A stretch of DNA of 64,000 nt, from the NCBI RefSeq assembly GCF_009017275.1, contig NZ_WBZC01000031.1:1-64000 (forward strand), read 5' to 3'. Each line of letters opens with the position of its first letter. Position 1 is the first letter of the stretch. The notes below the pieces were generated by a model. That model was not told the DNA's origin. It was given only the letters and a program-made list of their open reading frames with translations, and ran no database searches. Made by a program: the position numbers and the translations under genes. This document shows, piece by piece, positions 1,124 through 10,236 of the stretch. Origin of the DNA: Alkaliphilus pronyensis (GTDB lineage: Bacteria > Bacillota > Clostridia > Peptostreptococcales > Natronincolaceae).

Positions 1124-1152
1124 TTGACATAAATAATTTCCTGTGCTAATAT
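1124..1152 (+). promoter_or_regulatory. Sigma-A promoter of the pyr operon
   Basis: A perfect -35 TTGACA (1124-1129) and a -10 TAATAT (1147-1152) are separated by 17 bases. A TGC triplet just before the -10 makes it an extended -10. Transcription would start near 1159, just upstream of the PyrR-type RNA motif. Confidence 0.75.
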
Positions 1153-1170: not shown

Positions 1171-1203
1171 CCTTTAATTTGGTCCAGAGAGGCCAGAAAG
1201 GAA
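1171..1203 (+). promoter_or_regulatory. PyrR-binding RNA hairpin in the pyr leader
   Basis: The sequence GGTCCAGAGAGGCC (1181-1194) matches the conserved PyrR binding-loop core (TCCAGAGAGG). CCTTT (1171-1175) can pair with AAAGG (1198-1202), and TGG with CCA, closing a hairpin around the core. In Bacillus, PyrR with UMP binds this element and promotes termination. Here the 3' strand of the lower stem (AAAGGA) also looks like the Shine-Dalgarno of the ORF at 1211, so PyrR binding could block translation as well. No pyrR gene is in the window. Confidence 0.8.
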
Positions 1204-1210
1204 GATGATT

Positions 1211-1363
1211 ATGAGAATGTCAAATGCAACTCATTGTTTTTGCTATGTAAAAGTACATTATTGTAAGGATAACATAAGAACCGTAGGAAATAAGAGTTTC
1301 TTGTTTAATTTTTCTATTGATAAAGAAATATTGGAAAAGATAAGAGCAATAGAGGGAAGATAA
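1211..1363 (+). CDS. Putative pyr leader ORF (50 aa) overlapping the attenuator
   Basis: The ATG at 1211 lies 8 bases after AAAGGA (1197-1202) and opens an uninterrupted 50-codon frame ending TAA at 1361-1363. The product starts MRMSNATHCFCYVKVHYC and ends EKIRAIEGR; I know no family for it. The Shine-Dalgarno lies in the PyrR hairpin stem, the last codons form the 5' arm of the terminator, and the stop codon lies in the terminator loop. A translating ribosome would therefore mask the terminator. That is inference. An upstream in-frame ATG at 1205 is too close to the Shine-Dalgarno to be likely. Confidence 0.5.
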   Translation: MRMSNATHCFCYVKVHYCKDNIRTVGNKSFLFNFSIDKEILEKIRAIEGR

Positions 1364-1389
1364 AAATCTTCTTTCCATTGCTCTTTTTG
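1342..1389 (+). terminator. pyr leader attenuator (intrinsic terminator)
   Basis: Arms 1342-1360 and 1367-1385 pair over 18 of 19 positions around a six-base TAAAAA loop, followed by a T run. It lies about 40 bases before pyrC, where a PyrR-controlled attenuator is expected. The loop contains the stop codon of the leader ORF. Confidence 0.85.
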
Positions 1390-1426: not shown

Positions 1427-2734
1427 ATGAAGCTATTAATTAAGAATGGAAGGATTATTGACCCAGCTTCGAAAACAGACAAAAAAGCAGATGTACTATT
1501 GATAGATGGAAGAATTGCTGAAGTAAAAGAAAACATCAATATTGAAGCAGCTGAGGTTATAAATGCGGAAGGTAAGTGGGTGGTTCCTGGCTTAATCGAC
1601 ATCCACGTACATTTAAGGGAGCCTGGTTATGAGCATAAGGAAAATGTATTGACCGGCTGTAAAAGTGCAGTAATGGGTGGCTTTACTACCATTTGCTGTA
1701 TGCCAAATACAAAGCCTGTAATTGACTCAACAGAAGTAATTGATTTCATCAATAAGAAGACTAAAGTGGCAGACCTAATAAGGGTTTTACCAATAGGTAG
1801 TATTACAATAGGGCAACAGGGAAAAGAGTTAGCCCCCATAAAAGATATGCTTGAAGCAGGAATATGTGCCATAAGTGAGGATGGTAAGACAGTAATGGAT
1901 ACAGGGCTAATGGAGAGGGCTATGTCATTAGCCGCCCAATTAAACATAGGAGTATTTTCCCACTGTGAAGACCATGAAATAGCACAAAATGGAGTAATGA
2001 ATGGAGGAGAATTAGCAAAAAGGCTAAAGCTACAGGGGATACCAAGTGCTGCTGAAGATAACATAACCAAAAGAGATATACAACTTGCTAAAAAAACAGG
2101 TGCTAAGCTTCATTTATGCCATGTAAGCACTAAGGCTTCAGTAAAGTATATAAAAGAAGCAAAGCTTAGGGGAGAGAATGTAACGGCAGAGGTCTGCCCC
2201 CATCATTTCACCCTAACAGAAGAAGCAGTAATGAGTAAAGATCCCAATACTAAAATGAACCCACCCCTAAGAAGCAGAGGGGATGTAGAAGAGATAATTA
2301 GAGGATTAAAGGAGGGTACCATTGATGTAATAGCAACAGATCATGCTCCCCATCACGCAGATGAAAAGTCTGTTGGCTTTGAGGAGGCTCCCTTTGGAAT
2401 TGTTGGTTTAGAAACAGCTGTTGCTCTAGGAATATCAGAGCTAGTAAATAAAAATGTCTTAACACCTATGGAGCTTATAGAGAAAATGAGCACCAATCCA
2501 GCCCGAATATTGGGGATAGAGGGTGGCAGCCTAGAGGTTGGAAAAAGAGGAGATATAACAATAATAGATCCCGAGGCTGAGTACCAAATTGATAAAAACA
2601 AATTCCTATCAAAAAGTAAAAATACACCTTTTAACAATCGTCTAGTACAGGGGAAAGTTACCCATACAATTGTAGCAGGTAAAGTGGTTATGGAAAATGG
2701 AAAATTGAAGGGAGAGACTGAAAATGATAGATAG
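1427..2734 (+). CDS. pyrC: Dihydroorotase (PyrC)
   Basis: This 435-residue cytosolic enzyme cyclises N-carbamoyl-aspartate to dihydroorotate, the third step of UMP synthesis. The zinc-binding HxH motif is in GLIDIHVHLREPG (about residues 55-67), the metal-site CEDHE segment is mid-protein, and the late DVIATDHAPHH motif carries the catalytic Asp of class I dihydroorotases. The length is normal for the family. A strong GGAAGGAGG lies just upstream of ATG 1427. It is the first structural gene of the operon, and its end overlaps pyrF by 11 bases, suggesting translational coupling. Confidence 0.97.
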   Translation: MKLLIKNGRIIDPASKTDKKADVLLIDGRIAEVKENINIEAAEVINAEGKWVVPGLIDIHVHLREPGYEHKENVLTGCKSAVMGGFTTICCMPNTKPVIDSTEVIDFINKKTKVADLIRVLPIGSITIGQQGKELAPIKDMLEAGICAISEDGKTVMDTGLMERAMSLAAQLNIGVFSHCEDHEIAQNGVMNGGELAKRLKLQGIPSAAEDNITKRDIQLAKKTGAKLHLCHVSTKASVKYIKEAKLRGENVTAEVCPHHFTLTEEAVMSKDPNTKMNPPLRSRGDVEEIIRGLKEGTIDVIATDHAPHHADEKSVGFEEAPFGIVGLETAVALGISELVNKNVLTPMELIEKMSTNPARILGIEGGSLEVGKRGDITIIDPEAEYQIDKNKFLSKSKNTPFNNRLVQGKVTHTIVAGKVVMENGKLKGETENDR

Positions 2735-3659
2735 ACTTATAGAAAAGATTAAAGAAAAGGAAAGTCCAATTGTAGTAGGACTAGACCCAAGATTAAGCTT
2801 TGTTCCAGAGTGGATTAAGGAAGAATGCTATGGAGAATACGGAAAAACTCCAAAGGCAGCAGCAGAAGCATTCTTAAAATTCAACATGGAAATAATTGAT
2901 GCTACCTATGATTTAGTTCCAGCAGTAAAGCCTCAAATTGCAATGTATGAGCAATATGGTGCCCATGGAATAGAAGCATATATAAAAACGATAGAGTATT
3001 CCAAGAAAAAGAGCTTAATTGTAATAGGTGATATTAAAAGAGGAGATATAGCATCCACAGCAGAGGCATATTCCCATGGTCACATAGGAAGAGTTGGAGT
3101 AGAGGAGATGGAATTTGAAATCTACAAAGAGGATGCTATAACCATAAATCCATATTTAGGCTTCGATTCTATTGAGCCCTTTTTAGCAGATTGTAGTAGG
3201 TATGACAAAGGCTTATTCCTTTTGGTTAAGACATCAAACCCCAATAGTGGTGAAATACAAAACTTAGATATAGGTGGTGAGCTGCTATATGAAAGAATCG
3301 GACAGCTTGTATCGAAATGGGGTAAAGGCTTAATCGGAGCCTCTGGCTACAATAGCATTGGAGCAGTAGTAGGTGCCACCCATCCTGAGGAGGCAAAGAA
3401 ATTAAGGAAAATAATGCCCAATACCTATTTTCTTGTACCAGGCTATGGGGCTCAGGGAGCAACAGCAGCCGATTTAGCAGGTTGCTTTAATAAAGATGGG
3501 CTAGGAGCAATTATAAATTCTTCAAGAGGAATTATAGCTGCCCATAAAAGTAAAGAGTACGAAAACAAGTTTTCAAAAAAAGACTTTGCTTTGGCATCAA
3601 GAGAGGCAGTTATTAAGATGAAGCAGGACTTACAAAATGTATTAAGGACATTTGTATAA
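2724..3659 (+). CDS. pyrF: Orotidine 5'-phosphate decarboxylase, long type (PyrF)
   Basis: It decarboxylates OMP to UMP, the last step of the pathway. The catalytic D-x-K-x-x-D array is visible in VIGDIKRGDIAS (about residues 91-102), and VGLDPRLSF near the N-terminus is substrate-binding. At 311 residues it belongs to the longer OMP decarboxylase family found in clostridia and mycobacteria rather than the ~235-residue Bacillus type. The ATG overlaps the pyrC stop region. The stop lies 28 bases before the chosen carA start. Confidence 0.96.
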   Translation: MIDRLIEKIKEKESPIVVGLDPRLSFVPEWIKEECYGEYGKTPKAAAEAFLKFNMEIIDATYDLVPAVKPQIAMYEQYGAHGIEAYIKTIEYSKKKSLIVIGDIKRGDIASTAEAYSHGHIGRVGVEEMEFEIYKEDAITINPYLGFDSIEPFLADCSRYDKGLFLLVKTSNPNSGEIQNLDIGGELLYERIGQLVSKWGKGLIGASGYNSIGAVVGATHPEEAKKLRKIMPNTYFLVPGYGAQGATAADLAGCFNKDGLGAIINSSRGIIAAHKSKEYENKFSKKDFALASREAVIKMKQDLQNVLRTFV

Positions 3660-3687
3660 CATTTTAACTATAGGAAGAGGTGGAGAA

Positions 3688-4773
3688 ATGAAGGCAAAAC
3701 TAATACTAGAAAATGGAACTGTCTTTATAGGCAAGGCTTTTGGACATATAGACGAAACATTGGGAGAAGTTGTTTTCAACACTGCTATGACAGGCTATCA
3801 AGAGGTTTTGACGGATCCCTCCTATACAGGGCAAATTGTCACCATGACTTACCCACTAATAGGAAATTACGGAATTAATTTAGAGGATAATGAGTCTACT
3901 GCCCCGAAGGTAAAGGGATTAATTGTTAGAGAAAGGGCTACAAAGCCAAGCCATTGGCGATGCGAGATGGATATAGATGGATATTTAAAGCATCATAGAA
4001 TTATGGCTATAGAAGGGATTGACACTAGAGCCTTAACAAAGATTATCAGAACCCAGGGTACCATGAAGGGAATAATAATCACCAGTGAAATGAAGGAAAG
4101 TGAAGTACAACAAAGGTTTAACTCCTTCTGTAATAAAGAAGCAGTAAAAAGGGTTACAGCTAAAGAGATATATAACATTGAAGGAAATGGAAAGAAGATT
4201 GCAGTATTAGACTTTGGTGTAAAACAGAATATAATAGCCTCCCTAAGAAGAAGAAACTGCAATATTACAGTATTCCCAGCCTACTCAAAGGCAAAGGAGA
4301 TTTTAAGCATAAATCCAGATGGAATACTTCTTTCAAACGGACCAGGAGACCCAAAGGATTTACCAGAGATAATTTATACTGTTAAAGAACTAATGAAGCA
4401 AAAACCAATATTCGGTATATGCTTAGGTCATCAGCTTTTAAGCCTTGCCTTAGGTGGAGATACAGAAAAGCTAAAGTATGGACATAGGGGCTGTAATCAT
4501 CCTGTTAAGGATATAAACAATAACAGAGTATATATAACATCACAAAATCATGGATATGTAGTAAAAAGCCATAGTCTTCCAGAGGATGTAATTATAAGTC
4601 ATATAAACCTAAATGACAATTCCATAGAGGGTATACAGCATGTGAAATTACCTTTGCTAAGCGTACAATTTCATCCAGAAGCTTCACCGGGACCAAAGGA
4701 AAATGATTATTTATTTGACAGATTTTTAGGAATGGTAAAGGAGGAGAAGGTATGCCAAGGGATAACAGCATAA
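3688..4773 (+). CDS. carA: Carbamoyl-phosphate synthase small subunit (CarA)
   Basis: CarA is the glutaminase subunit that supplies ammonia to CarB. The N-terminal CarA domain ([15 protein letters not shown]) is followed by a class I glutamine amidotransferase domain with the nucleophile Cys in [10 protein letters not shown] and the His/Glu pair in [12 protein letters not shown] chose ATG 3688 (361 aa) because GGAAGAGGTGGAG lies just upstream and residue 1 then matches the family. An in-frame start at 3652 would add 12 unrelated residues. It overlaps carB by 22 bases. Confidence 0.96.
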
Positions 4774-7700
4774 AAAAAGTACTGGTTATTGGATCGGGTC
4801 CTATTATCATTGGACAAGCAGCAGAGTTTGACTATGCAGGAACTCAAGCCTGTAAAGCCCTTAAAGAAGAAGGAATTGAGGTTGTATTAGTTAATAGCAA
4901 TCCTGCCACAATAATGACTGACAAAGAAGTAGCTAATAAAATATACATTGAACCCCTAACCATAGAATTTATTGAAAAGGTCATTGAAAAGGAAAAGCCC
5001 GATAGTCTTATTGCGGGAATGGGTGGACAAACAGGCTTAAACCTAGCTGTAGAATTACATGATAGGGGTATCCTAGAAAAACACAATGTAAGAATTATTG
5101 GTACCTCCATTGCTTCAATAAAGCAGGGGGAGGACAGAGAATTATTTCAGAAGCTTATGAAGAAAATTAATCAGCCGGTTATAGAGGGTAAGATTGTTAC
5201 AAACCTTGAAGAGGGCTTGCAACTTGCCGAAGAAATTGGGTATCCAGTAGTGGTTAGACCAGCCTATACCTTAGGAGGAGCAGGAGGAGGTATAGCAGAA
5301 GAAAAGGAAGCCCTAAGAGAAATTTTGGCACAAGGACTTCAGTTAAGTCGTGTTGGACAGGTTTTGATTGAAAGATCAATAAAGGGCTGGAAGGAAATTG
5401 AATATGAAGTAATGCGTGATGGTGATGGAAATTGCATTACTGTATGTAATATGGAAAACCTTGATCCTGTGGGAGTCCATACAGGAGACAGTATAGTAAT
5501 TGCCCCTTCTCAAACCTTGACAGATAAAGAATACCAAATGTTAAGAAGTGCAGCAATTGATATTATAAACGCTATTAATATAGAAGGCGGCTGCAATGTA
5601 CAGCTGGCTCTTGACCCTAAAAGCTTAGATTATATAGTTATTGAAATAAACCCTAGGGTTAGTCGCTCCTCTGCATTAGCATCTAAGGTGACGGGTTATC
5701 CCATTGCAAAGGTAGCAGCTAAAATTGCATTAGGCTACAGCTTAGACGAGATATTGAACACAGTTACTGGAAAAACCTACTCCTGCTTTGAGCCAACCCT
5801 AGACTATGTAGTTATCAAGATACCCAAATGGCCATTTGAAAAGTTCTCTGGAGTAACGAAAAGTCTGGGAACAAAGATGATGGCAACAGGTGAGACTATG
5901 GCAATTGCAAACAACTTTGAAGCCGCATTGCTTAAGGGCATTAGATCATTGGAAATAGGACAATACAATCTGGAAAGAAAAGCCTCAAAGGAAAAGAGCT
6001 TAGAGGAGCTAAAAAGAAGAGTACAGGTACCAGATGATGAACGGATTTTTGATATAGCAGAGATGCTACGAAGAAATTACAGGGTAGATAAAGCCTGCGA
6101 AATAACAGGAATGGATGTATTCTTTATAGAAAAGCTTAGGGATATTGTTATGGAGGAGGAAAAGCTAAAGGAGACTAAGCTAGAGGATTTAACCTATGAT
6201 AGACTACATTGGTTAAAGAGAAAGGGCTTTTCTGACAAAGGAATAGCAGACCTAATGAATATTTCACCAGAAAAAATATACAAGCTAAGAAAGAGCTTTG
6301 GGATAGAAGCAGTTTATAAAATGGTGGATACCTGTGGTGGAGAGTTTGATGCAATATCCCCCTATTATTACTCAACCTATGATGAAATAGATGAAGTAGA
6401 GGTATCGGAAAGAAAAAAGGTGTTGGTGGTGGGCTCTGGACCTATTAGAATAGGGCAAGGTATTGAATTTGATTATTGCTCTGTCCATTGTGTTATAGCT
6501 TTGAAGGCCATGGGAATAGAAACAATTATAGTTAATAATAATCCTGAAACAGTAAGTACGGATTTTGATATATCCGACAAGCTTTATTTTGAGCCATTAA
6601 CTGAAGAGGATGTACTAAACATAATTGAGAAAGAAAGGCCAGATGGAGTAGTCCTTCAATTTGGAGGACAAACGGCTATAAAACTAGCAGGTTTTTTAAG
6701 GGAAATGAATATACCAATTTTGGGAACACAGCCTCAACAGATAGATATGGCAGAGGACAGAGAAAAATTTGATACAATGCTGGAGGAACTAAATATAAAA
6801 AGGCCTAAAGGTAAAGGAATATGGAAGGTTGAGGAGGGACTAGAGGAGGCAAAAAAGCTTGGTTACCCTGTGCTAGTTAGACCCTCCTATGTGTTAGGAG
6901 GACAGGGCATGGAAATAACCTATGGAGAAGGGGAGCTTAAACCATATCTTGAGGAGGCCCTACAAAGAGACAAGAAAAACCCTGTGCTTATAGATAGCTA
7001 CCTGTTGGGGAAGGAAATTGAAATAGATGCAATATGTGACGGAGAAGAGGTTTTAATACCTGGAATAATGGAGCATTTAGAAAGGGCTGGTGTCCATTCT
7101 GGTGACAGTATAACTATTTTTCCAAGCAACAATATCTCCAATAAGATAGAAGAAAAAATACTGAGCTATACAAAAAAAATAGCCAAGAGTCTTAAGGTTA
7201 AGGGCATGATAAATATTCAGTTTATTGAATACCAAGAGGATTTATATGTTATTGAGGTAAACCCCAGGTCCAGTCGAACTGTTCCCTATATAAGCAAAGT
7301 AAGTGGGGTACCTGTTATTAACCTAGCAACAAGAGTAATGATGGGGGAAAAGCTAAAAAACCTTAAGTATGGTACAGGAATATATAAAAAGCCCCAGCTG
7401 GTGGCGGTAAAGGTACCGGTTTTCTCCACAGAAAAGCTTCCAATGGCAGAAATAAGCCTAGGTCCCGAAATGAAGTCAACTGGTGAGGTTTTAGGTGTGG
7501 GAAAAAGCTTTTCTGAAGCTATGCTTAAAGGGTTTACAGCCGCTGGAGTAAAGCTGCCAAAAGAAAAGGGTAATATAATAGTTACAATAAATGACCATCA
7601 TAAACAGGAATTTCTGCCACTGGCAAAGAATTTTATTAAATTAGGCTATCAATTATTTGCAACAGAGGGAACAGCAAAGTTTTTAGAGGCTAATGGCTTA

Positions 7701-7964
7701 CAAACCACTAGGGTTAAGAAAATACAAGAGGGAGTACCCAATATATTAGATTTAATAAGAAGTGGAACAGTAGATTTAATAATTAATACACCTACAAAGG
7801 GCAAGGATAGCAAAAGGGACGGCTTTAGGATAAGAAGAACAGCTGTAGAAACATCTGTAAAGGTGTTGACCTCATTAGACACAGCCAACACTATGCTTAA
7901 GCTCATTGAAAAAAATGTTTCAATAGATTCCCTAGAGGCAATAGAAATAGGAGGTGGAGATTAA
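4752..7964 (+). CDS. carB: Carbamoyl-phosphate synthase large subunit (CarB)
   Basis: CarB makes carbamoyl phosphate from bicarbonate, ammonia and two ATP. The 1070-residue length and two homologous halves are typical. Each half opens with a nucleotide-fold signature ([19 protein letters not shown] at the start, [19 protein letters not shown] near residue 558) followed by an ATP-grasp domain with the metal-site motifs [15 protein letters not shown] and [17 protein letters not shown]-terminal MGS-like allosteric domain (from about residue 935, [13 protein letters not shown]) binds UMP or other effectors. An AAAGGAGGAGAAGG ribosome site precedes ATG 4752 inside the end of carA. Confidence 0.97.
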
Positions 7965-8732
7965 TTGAAGAAAAAACTAACGGCAATCATAAAGAAAAAT
8001 CAACAAATTGCACATGGAATGTTTGAGATGCTTTTATCAGTGGGAGAAATAGCAGCTTTAGCCTCCCCGGGGCAGTTCATAAATCTTTATAGCAATAGAA
8101 AAGACCTGTTACTACCAAGACCCATCAGTATTTGTGAAATAGACAAAGAAAAGGGCTTCATTAAGCTTGTATATGCAGTTGTGGGGAAGGGAACATCCGA
8201 TATCAGCAAAATGCATGTGGGGGATATTATAGAAGTAATGGGTCCACTGGGCAATGGCTTTACAATTTCTAAAGAGATAAAGGGACACATAATAATAGGA
8301 GGTGGAATTGGAGTACCACCCCTATTAGAGCTGGCTAAAGGACTAACAGGTGAAATGTCAGTGTATTTAGGCTTTAGATGTGAGCCAATACTGGTGGAGG
8401 AGTTTAAAAAATATACTGATAAGGTCTACATTGCAACTGAAGATGGAGGCTGGGGAATAAAAGGGAATGTAATAGGCCTACTAAAAAGCAATCACCCAAA
8501 GGGTGAAATGATATATAGCTGTGGACCAAAGCCAATGCTAAAGGCTGTTGCAAGTTGGGCAGAAGATAATGATATAAAGGCACAGCTTTCATTAGAAGAA
8601 AGAATGGCCTGTGGTATAGGAGCCTGTTTAGTATGTACCTGCAAAGCTAAGGATAATAACGATTGGCAATACAAAAGGGTATGTAAGGATGGACCAGTTT
8701 TCCTTAGAGAAGAGGTGATTTGGAATGAATAG
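7965..8732 (+). CDS. pyrK: Dihydroorotate dehydrogenase electron-transfer subunit (PyrK)
   Basis: PyrK carries electrons between the PyrD flavin and NAD through FAD and a 2Fe-2S cluster. The ferredoxin-reductase-like FAD site is RPISICEID (near residue 50), and the NAD site contains IIGGGIGVPPLLELA. The cluster ligands form a C-x4-C-x2-C-x(n)-C pattern in ACGIGACLVCTC plus a later Cys in RVCKDG. The start is TTG at 7965, immediately after the carB stop, preceded by GGAGGTGGAGA. Its end overlaps pyrD by 8 bases. Confidence 0.95.
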   Translation: MKKKLTAIIKKNQQIAHGMFEMLLSVGEIAALASPGQFINLYSNRKDLLLPRPISICEIDKEKGFIKLVYAVVGKGTSDISKMHVGDIIEVMGPLGNGFTISKEIKGHIIIGGGIGVPPLLELAKGLTGEMSVYLGFRCEPILVEEFKKYTDKVYIATEDGGWGIKGNVIGLLKSNHPKGEMIYSCGPKPMLKAVASWAEDNDIKAQLSLEERMACGIGACLVCTCKAKDNNDWQYKRVCKDGPVFLREEVIWNE

Positions 8733-9639
8733 ACCGGGTCTTAAAGTAAATATAGCTGGAGTAGAGCTAAAAAACCCCGTAATGACAGCATCTGGCACCT
8801 TTGGTTCGGGGCTAGAATACGGTGAATATGTTGATTTAAACAAACTAGGAGGAGTAGTTACAAAGGGGGTGGCCAGTATCCCATGGAAGGGAAATGCCGG
8901 TGTTAGGGTGGCAGAAACCTACGGTGGAATGCTAAATAGCGTGGGACTACAAAACCCAGGAATAGAAGAATTTATTAAGAAGGACATTCCATTCCTAAGA
9001 AAGCATGATACAAAAATAGTTGTCAATATAGCTGGAAAAACCCTAGAGGAGTATTGTAGTGTGGTGGAAAGACTTGCAGGAGAGGATGTAGATTTACTTG
9101 AGCTAAATATATCCTGTCCTAATGTAAAAGAGGGTGGAGTTTGCTTTGGAACCGACACAAAAATGGTGGAATATATGGTGAAGGAAGTTAAAAAAATTGC
9201 AAAGCAACCACTTATAGTAAAGCTTACACCTAATGTTACAGATATTGTCTCTATTGCAAAGGCAGCGGAGGCAGCAGGGGCAGATGCAATTTCATTAATT
9301 AACACCCTGTTAGGTATGGCAATTGATATTCATAAAAGAAGGCCAGTTTTAGGTAATATTGTAGGTGGCCTGTCGGGACCTGCAATAAAGCCAGTGGCCC
9401 TTCGAATGGTATATCAAGCTGCTAATGCAGTAAAGGTACCGATCATTGGTATGGGGGGTATAATGACGGGAGAAGATGCTATAGAATTTCTTTTAGCTGG
9501 GGCAACAGCAATTGCTGTCGGTACAGCAAATTTTGTTAACCCTAGAGCCACTATTGATATATTAAATGGAATTGAAGACTATATTATAAAGCATAAGGAA
9601 AAAGACATTACATCTATTATAGGTAGCTTAAACAAATAA
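8725..9639 (+). CDS. pyrD: Dihydroorotate dehydrogenase class 1B (PyrD)
   Basis: This FMN enzyme oxidises dihydroorotate to orotate. With PyrK next door it is the NAD-linked class 1B heterotetramer, a soluble form suited to anaerobes, rather than the quinone-linked class 2. Visible motifs are NPVMTASGTFGSG at the N-terminus, the catalytic-base Cys in LNISCPNVKEGG, and the FMN phosphate site IIGMGGIMTGEDAIEF near the C-terminus. The 304-residue length is normal. ATG 8725 overlaps the pyrK end. Confidence 0.96.
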   Translation: MNRPGLKVNIAGVELKNPVMTASGTFGSGLEYGEYVDLNKLGGVVTKGVASIPWKGNAGVRVAETYGGMLNSVGLQNPGIEEFIKKDIPFLRKHDTKIVVNIAGKTLEEYCSVVERLAGEDVDLLELNISCPNVKEGGVCFGTDTKMVEYMVKEVKKIAKQPLIVKLTPNVTDIVSIAKAAEAAGADAISLINTLLGMAIDIHKRRPVLGNIVGGLSGPAIKPVALRMVYQAANAVKVPIIGMGGIMTGEDAIEFLLAGATAIAVGTANFVNPRATIDILNGIEDYIIKHKEKDITSIIGSLNK

Positions 9640-9651
9640 GGAGGTAGTAAA

Positions 9652-10236
9652 GTGTTAAATAAAGAGAGGGTTTTAGAAATTTTTAAAGAAACAAATATGC
9701 TATTGGAGGGACACTTCCTCTTAACATCTGGAAGACACAGTAATCAATATATGCAGTGTGCTAGACTACTTCAGTACCCCTGGTATACAGAGGAAATTAC
9801 AGCAGGGCTGGCAGAGGAGTTTATAAATGATAACATAGACATAGTAATAGGTCCAGCAATGGGAGGGATTATATTAGCCTATGAGTTAGCAAGAAAGCTA
9901 AAGGCCATCAACATATTTGCAGAAAGAGAAAATGGCACTATGACCTTAAGAAGAGGCTTCACTATTCCAAAGGGAGCTAGAGTGTTGGTGGCAGAGGATG
10001 TAATAACCACCGGTGGCTCAGTAAGAGAAACCATTGATATAGTTAAAGAACATGGGGGGGGATTAGTGGGAGTTGCTTTGCTGGTGGATAGAAGCAACGG
10101 TAAAATTGATTTTGGAACAAAGCAAAGGGCTGCATTGACAACAGAGGTAAAATCTTATACAGCAGAAGAATGTCCTATATGTAAAGAAGGTAACTTTGAA
10201 TTAGTAAAGCCTGGTAGTAGGAAAGTAAACCTATAG
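9652..10236 (+). CDS. pyrE: Orotate phosphoribosyltransferase (PyrE)
   Basis: PyrE joins orotate and PRPP to give OMP. The 13-residue PRPP-binding signature is in VLVAEDVITTGGSVRET (about residues 112-128), and the N-terminal LLEGHFLLTSGRHSNQY motif is typical. The 194-residue length includes a short C-terminal extension with CPIC, which may bind metal. The GTG start at 9652 has GGAGG eight bases upstream. It is the last pyr gene here. I could not find a clear terminator in the 150 bases that follow. Confidence 0.96.
   Translation: MLNKERVLEIFKETNMLLEGHFLLTSGRHSNQYMQCARLLQYPWYTEEITAGLAEEFINDNIDIVIGPAMGGIILAYELARKLKAINIFAERENGTMTLRRGFTIPKGARVLVAEDVITTGGSVRETIDIVKEHGGGLVGVALLVDRSNGKIDFGTKQRAALTTEVKSYTAEECPICKEGNFELVKPGSRKVNL

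Follow-up and report, generated by a model that had tools for sequence, protein, structure and literature searches.

The pyrC operon of Alkaliphilus pronyensis is preceded by a leader in which a PyrR-binding loop, a short open reading frame (ORF) and an intrinsic terminator follow one another. The question raised by this locus is whether PyrR acts here through a swap of RNA structures, as in Bacillus, or through a ribosome translating the leader ORF. The locus was analysed in the window (the whole stretch of 64,000 nucleotides under study, to which positions refer unless another locus is named) and compared with PyrR leaders from related genomes.

The leader and its operon

The features of the locus are listed in Table 1. 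The -10 region of the predicted promoter was identical in the sister genome (L002), and from its position the 5′ end of the transcript is expected near 1159, about 12 nt ahead of the PyrR loop. Positions 560–900 of the window form a low-complexity, AT-rich spacer in which near-repeats occur, among them attaagagttaagaatt and aaaattgaaaatggaaaatt, and on the minus strand positions 3–452 hold the start of an S-layer-homology-like protein with a signal peptide, which is cut by the window end and unrelated to the operon.

The PyrR core CCAGAGAGG was located at 1184–1192. The conserved binding loop, CCUUU...GUCCAGAGAGGC...AAGG, was found to be present, its loop part matching RF00515 essentially in full, and the closing stem (CCUU 1171–1174, AAGG 1198–1201) showed a folding energy of -10.1 kcal/mol. 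RF00515 (Rfam) matched positions 1167–1262 with 41.2 bits (E 2.3e-4, 451-base search); the gathering score is 54, and because the PyrR site scores below this cut-off, an Rfam search at the gathering threshold gave no match. The model also spans the downstream antiterminator part of classic leaders, which this leader seems to lack. PyrR sites were found by RF00515 search in 20 of 20 genomes examined from the GTDB family of the window.

A preliminary description of this DNA had reported a PyrR core with AAAGGA in its closing stem and an ATG opening a 50-codon frame, and both were borne out. Besides the ATG at 1211–1213, further in-frame ATGs are found at 1205 and 1217, but the start codon in relatives aligns with position 1211. 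The distance from the Shine-Dalgarno sequence to this ATG was constant across the compared leaders. The overlap of the Shine-Dalgarno sequence with the PyrR stem was likewise present in the compared leaders, but it is partly built into the binding site, since the PyrR consensus itself includes AAGG and a Shine-Dalgarno-like element is thus expected for free in the stem. The peptide encoded by the leader ORF showed no Pfam match. The terminator, previously counted as 18 of 19 bp, was confirmed as a strong hairpin (-22.7 kcal/mol, z -6.45), for which we count 19 bp including one internal mismatch. The TAA said to lie exactly in its loop is found at the hairpin apex, where it spans the 3′-terminal base of the 5′ arm and two of the four loop bases. 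For this locus alone, the chance of a dinucleotide-shuffled leader being open up to the terminator was p 0.012.

The operon has the order pyrC-pyrF-carA-carB-pyrK-pyrD-pyrE, with contiguous or overlapping ORFs of which those after pyrC cover 2724–10236 on the plus strand; pyrC was the one operon gene searched against protein families. The pyrR gene was found elsewhere in the genome (C16:57902–58429; NF003549, 253 bits, cut-off 138), preceded by a classic PyrR leader.

Table 1. Features of the pyrC leader and operon, with positions in the window and the basis of each assignment.
Feature	Position	Strand	Description	Basis
Promoter	1124–1152	+	TTGACA 1124–1129, 17-nt spacer, TG and extended -10 TAATAT 1147–1152	Consensus scan 10/12 with TG; predicted
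PyrR-binding loop	1171–1201	+	Stem CCUU...AAGG, core GGUCCAGAGAGGCC	RF00515, fold, family conservation
Shine-Dalgarno of leader ORF	1197–1202	+	AAAGGA, on 3′ strand of PyrR closing stem	Sequence
Leader ORF	1211–1363	+	50 codons, MRMSNATHCFCYVKVHYCKDNIRTVGNKSFLFNFSIDKEILEKIRAIEGR, stop TAA 1361–1363	Frame stop-free in 31/31 relatives
T-tract	1237–1241	+	TTTTT then G (TTGTTT at 1234 fits TTNTTT); candidate RNA polymerase pause	Position conserved
Intrinsic terminator (attenuator)	1342–1385	+	19 bp, 4-nt loop, T-rich tail	Fold
pyrC (dihydroorotase)	1427–2734	+	Own Shine-Dalgarno AAGGAGG about 1414–1420	Pfam amidohydrolase/DHOase; reading frame
pyrF	2724–3659	+		ORF; name by sequence recognition
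carA	to 4773	+		ORF; name by sequence recognition
carB	4752–7964	+		ORF; name by sequence recognition
pyrK	7965–8732	+		ORF; name by sequence recognition
pyrD	8725–9639	+		ORF; name by sequence recognition
pyrE	9652–10236	+		ORF; name by sequence recognition

Leader frame, peptide and antiterminator pairing

The comparison comprised 31 leaders of this ORF type from several families, of which 22 formed a core set and nine were added from named pyrC loci (uncultured Alkaliphilus, Epulonipiscium, Vallitalea, Sporanaerobium, a Tissierellia, and other Clostridia records). The core set had been extended by a pattern search at the order and class level, which gave carA leaders of three further families (G101/G038, G208/G143, and G583). 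In the GTDB family of the window, every pyrC leader that the PyrR model detected (15 genomes) was of the ORF type, and three carA leaders shared this layout. The pyrB and uraA leaders of those same genomes were of the classic type.

From the conserved ATG to the terminator, not a single stop was found in 1,037 codons of the 31 leaders, against 96 and 109 stops in the other two frames of the same leaders. The codon frame is thus conserved in related genomes. All compared leaders showed an ATG 25–34 nt past the PyrR core, with the Shine-Dalgarno sequence within the stem. In sister genome G001 the leader recurs; its ORF has 52 codons, encodes a protein with 42% identity and likewise stops in the terminator loop. 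Comparison with dinucleotide shuffles of the core leaders showed that 22 of 22 were open to the terminator (1.9 expected) and that 15 of 22 had a stop no more than 6.5 nt from the loop centre (1.35 expected), counts that are not independent given the kinship among many leaders, so that single p values must not be multiplied into a probability. The set nonetheless spans several families and includes peptides beyond alignment.

The terminator was reached by all 31 ORFs, with 19 stopping inside the hairpin and one ending on the first base at its foot. The remaining 11 read through it, so a stop in the loop, which lies at most 6.5 nt from the centre of the loop in 18 of the 31 leaders and had been singled out at this locus from the start, is common among the relatives but not required. 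As far as the sequences tell, the constant feature is the entry of a ribosome into the terminator rather than the stop in the loop. In Alkaliphilus transvaalensis (L044), two ORF-type leaders at 520 and 4065, about 3.5 kb apart, were found before pyrC and carA; their start regions and terminators are related and their ORF lengths differ, and the pair looks like a duplicated control region.

The conserved frame could in principle belong to a functional small protein, with the terminator merely overlapping the end of its ORF, and the open frame, the good Shine-Dalgarno sequence and some N-terminal likeness across genomes (an F-C/F-F motif) would fit such a protein. A protein under selection shows an excess of differences at the third codon position, but differences in seven close pairs were distributed as 86/79/91 over the three positions, with no third-position excess. 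In addition, the ORFs range from 18 to 76 codons, their C-termini are unrelated, the Pfam match is absent, and the N-terminal motif coincides with a T-tract that occurs in differing codon phases (see below). A functional product is therefore considered very improbable. Gaps in the ORF alignments are mostly multiples of three. The peptides thus drift freely while the frame is kept, which argues that translation is conserved rather than its product; this is the expectation if the ribosome, and not the peptide, acts.

A classic Bacillus-type swap would make the ORF incidental: PyrR would stabilise an anti-antiterminator and, without PyrR, an antiterminator would pair with the 5′ arm of the terminator. 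The protein and the binding motif are indeed the same as in Bacillus. Pairing between the 3′ strand of the PyrR loop and the 5′ arm of the terminator averaged -2.9 kcal/mol in 22 ORF-type leaders compared to -9.0 kcal/mol in 33 classic leaders (Mann-Whitney p = 3e-9), a comparison that describes the difference and is no blind proof, because the classes were set by layout and downstream hairpin. The classic leaders were those of pyrB, uraA, pyrF and some carA genes, many from the same genomes as the ORF-type leaders, and their terminator hairpins were read from individual leaders, replacing poor first automatic terminator calls. At this locus the pairing was -2.1 kcal/mol (p 0.76), and in none of the 31 leaders (22 core and nine added) was it better than with shuffled arms; an antiterminator formed directly by the PyrR strand was rejected on this ground.

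Pairing of the remaining leader with the terminator arm was not above shuffles either (p 0.10–0.97). Five of the longer leaders, this one included, contain a U-rich stretch that can form a duplex of -10 to -12.5 kcal/mol with the arm, which speaks for a swap. Such pairing is strong singly but does not rise above shuffles and is absent from the short leaders, where there is little room for it, and an antiterminator elsewhere in the leader was also rejected. A swap would besides leave the 1,037 stop-free codons unexplained. With no clear alternative antiterminator standing out, we consider the classic swap improbable here, and the sequence comparisons support the earlier proposal that this leader differs from the Bacillus scheme.

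A T-tract behind the start codon

A run of at least five Ts starting 15–44 nt past the ATG was found in 19 of the 22 core leaders, compared to a mean of 2.6 in base shuffles (maximum 8) and 4.4 in codon shuffles (maximum 10). No leader of the core set had such a run starting 0–14 or 45–59 nt past the ATG. The run is directly followed by G in 15 of the 19, and among classic leaders a T-tract was seen in 3 of 22. The motif TTNTTT was present in 16 of the 22 core leaders (codon-shuffle mean 4.8), and either TTNTTT or a T-run in 25 of the 31 leaders when the added loci were included (codon-shuffle mean 9.0); leaders with the tract include L035, L044, L047, L050, L053, L058, L077, L080, L086, L087, L100, and L101, among others. 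The conserved position of the T-tract in ORF-type leaders is new here.

The tract makes use of all three codon phases (5/4/10), which shows that a DNA or RNA tract is shared and not the residues Phe and Cys. This bears on a further explanation, according to which Cys or Phe codons would let translation respond to an amino acid or to a stalling signal, as in classic amino-acid attenuators, and PyrR would supply the second input. Many leaders do have F-C(-C) at codons 7–14, as such sensing would have it, but the codons vary (FF, FFD, FFG, LF, FV), an alternative hairpin is not conserved, and pyrimidine genes are unlinked to the supply of Cys or Phe. Amino-acid sensing is accordingly held to be a very unlikely basis of control. 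The F-C-C peptide motif, considered as a stalling or codon-sensing signal, was rejected and reinterpreted as a T-tract whose codon phase differs between leaders.

The motif TTNTTT, when it lies on the non-template strand, brings about NusG-dependent pausing in B. subtilis (PMC9226507, PMC12288461), for which the NusG residues N81/T82 are needed and which at tlrB buys time for translation of the leader peptide (PMC12288461). The NusG of this genome contains the NT pair (...LVRNTRGVTGF..., aligned by eye; N81/T82 numbering from PMC12288461). The T-tract is thus a candidate RNA-polymerase pause site that would let the ribosome catch up.

Proposed control and known systems

We propose, at a probability of roughly 85% and on the strength of the sequence comparisons, that a PyrR-gated, translation-dependent transcription attenuator controls this operon. 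When UMP is high, PyrR-UMP would hold the 5′-terminal loop of the growing transcript closed and hide AAAGGA; the leader ORF would then stay untranslated, the terminator would form and the operon would be off. When UMP is low, PyrR would depart, the weak closing stem would open and a ribosome would initiate at AUG 1211, trail the RNA polymerase into the terminator and cover its 5′ arm and loop, so that no hairpin would form and transcription would continue into pyrC. The T-tract probably pauses the polymerase just as the initiation site emerges: at a pause near +60 the ribosome site would only just have left the polymerase, and the pause would allow time for the choice between ribosome and PyrR and would keep the ribosome close. 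The preliminary description had already read the leader in terms of PyrR hiding the ribosome site and a ribosome masking the terminator, and the kept frame and the lack of an antiterminator that stands out lend support to that reading. The occurrence of ORF-type leaders at pyrC and classic leaders at pyrB and uraA in the same genomes is an internal contrast that favours it as well.

Work in E. coli has shown that a terminator is almost completely repressed when a ribosome sits at a stop codon located a few bases ahead of it (PMC4824070). Bacillota, Clostridia among them, have been classed as showing runaway transcription, in which lagging ribosomes could not block a terminator (PMC13323073). 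This is the main doubt on the model, and the T-tract is a possible answer to it. The balance tips slightly towards a distinct and widespread class of PyrR leaders in Clostridia that combines three mutually adjusted elements: a ribosome site occluded by PyrR, a T-tract at which RNA polymerase pauses until that site has emerged, and an expendable ORF leading into the terminator. Such a protein-gated switch would enforce local coupling of transcription and translation in bacteria otherwise regarded as uncoupled. If so, about 30 leaders of a central pathway rely on a timely ribosome, coupling must exist in Clostridia at least locally, and the T-tract is a concrete candidate for its cause.

Other PyrR layouts were found among the relatives. 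In L108 (carA of G103), L206 and L230 (pyrB), and L208, L231 and L232 (uraA), the Shine-Dalgarno sequence in the PyrR loop directly serves the pyr gene, without a leader ORF or terminator, and these leaders are, judging by their layout, apparent PyrR translational operators in Bacillota. The pyrB leader of the genome of the window (L033, 767–950) contains two tandem PyrR loops: the first belongs to a classic attenuator, and the second, at 883–918 with AAAAAGGGAG, lies near the start of pyrB, an arrangement that suggests double control. The direct form and the second loop before pyrB support the view that PyrR loops serve to mask ribosome sites in this group of bacteria.

Three carA leaders of family f153 (L227–L229) showed a PyrR loop with AAAGGAGG, ORFs of 9–25 codons and a GC-rich terminator, with the ORF stop of L229 in the terminator loop; from their sequences they possibly represent an independent origin of the same layout.

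PyrR of Mycobacterium smegmatis represses translation through a PyrR loop that contains the Shine-Dalgarno sequence of the structural gene. The leader described here is similar in that PyrR could block ribosome binding at a Shine-Dalgarno sequence within the loop, but this sequence serves the leader ORF, and pyrC has a Shine-Dalgarno sequence of its own more than 200 nt further downstream; the direct forms mentioned above show that the other arrangement is also present among the relatives. The pyrBI operon of E. coli likewise has a leader ORF reading into the attenuator, where the ribosome blocks the terminator and UTP is sensed through pausing of RNA polymerase. It shares with the present locus a pyrimidine operon, a leader ORF into the attenuator and a blocking ribosome, but it does so without an RNA-binding protein, whereas PyrR would gate initiation here.

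PyrR attenuation in Bacillus subtilis (RF00515; Lu et al., 1996, cited in PMC4347634) resembles the present case in having a PyrR loop near the 5′ end and an intrinsic terminator ahead of the pyr genes. It differs in that here the strand of the binding loop is not complementary to the terminator arm, and control through ribosome binding and leader translation is proposed instead. The B. subtilis tlrB and vmlR leaders, also from Bacillota, combine NusG-dependent T-rich pausing, a translated leader ORF and attenuation (PMC12288461, PMC9226507), but they depend on antibiotic-stalled ribosomes and an RNA antiterminator, whereas here PyrR-UMP would be the input and the ribosome itself would block the terminator. 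If the model is true, one RNA-binding protein is used in three mechanisms (antiterminator swap, direct blocking of a Shine-Dalgarno sequence and gating of a leader ORF) in one bacterial group, and two of the three occur in the genome studied here, which makes it a good test bed for the evolution of switches.

The principle is not new, and the antiterminator that defines the Bacillus type was looked for and not found in this leader. For the pyr operon of Thermus ZO5, Van de Casteele et al. are said to have proposed in 1997 a PyrR attenuation without an antiterminator, in which a translating ribosome prevents formation of the terminator hairpin, a model reportedly inferred from one leader. The anatomy of the present leader would agree with that proposal in the PyrR-controlled translation of the leader, the lack of an antiterminator and the masking of the terminator by the ribosome. 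In the open-access literature searched, no account of leader-ORF gating by PyrR in Clostridia was found. Thermus belongs to another phylum and its operon is pyrR-pyrB, whereas the leader described here is accompanied by comparative support from about 30 leaders, by the presence of classic and ORF-type leaders in one genome, and by a T-tract as a pause candidate.
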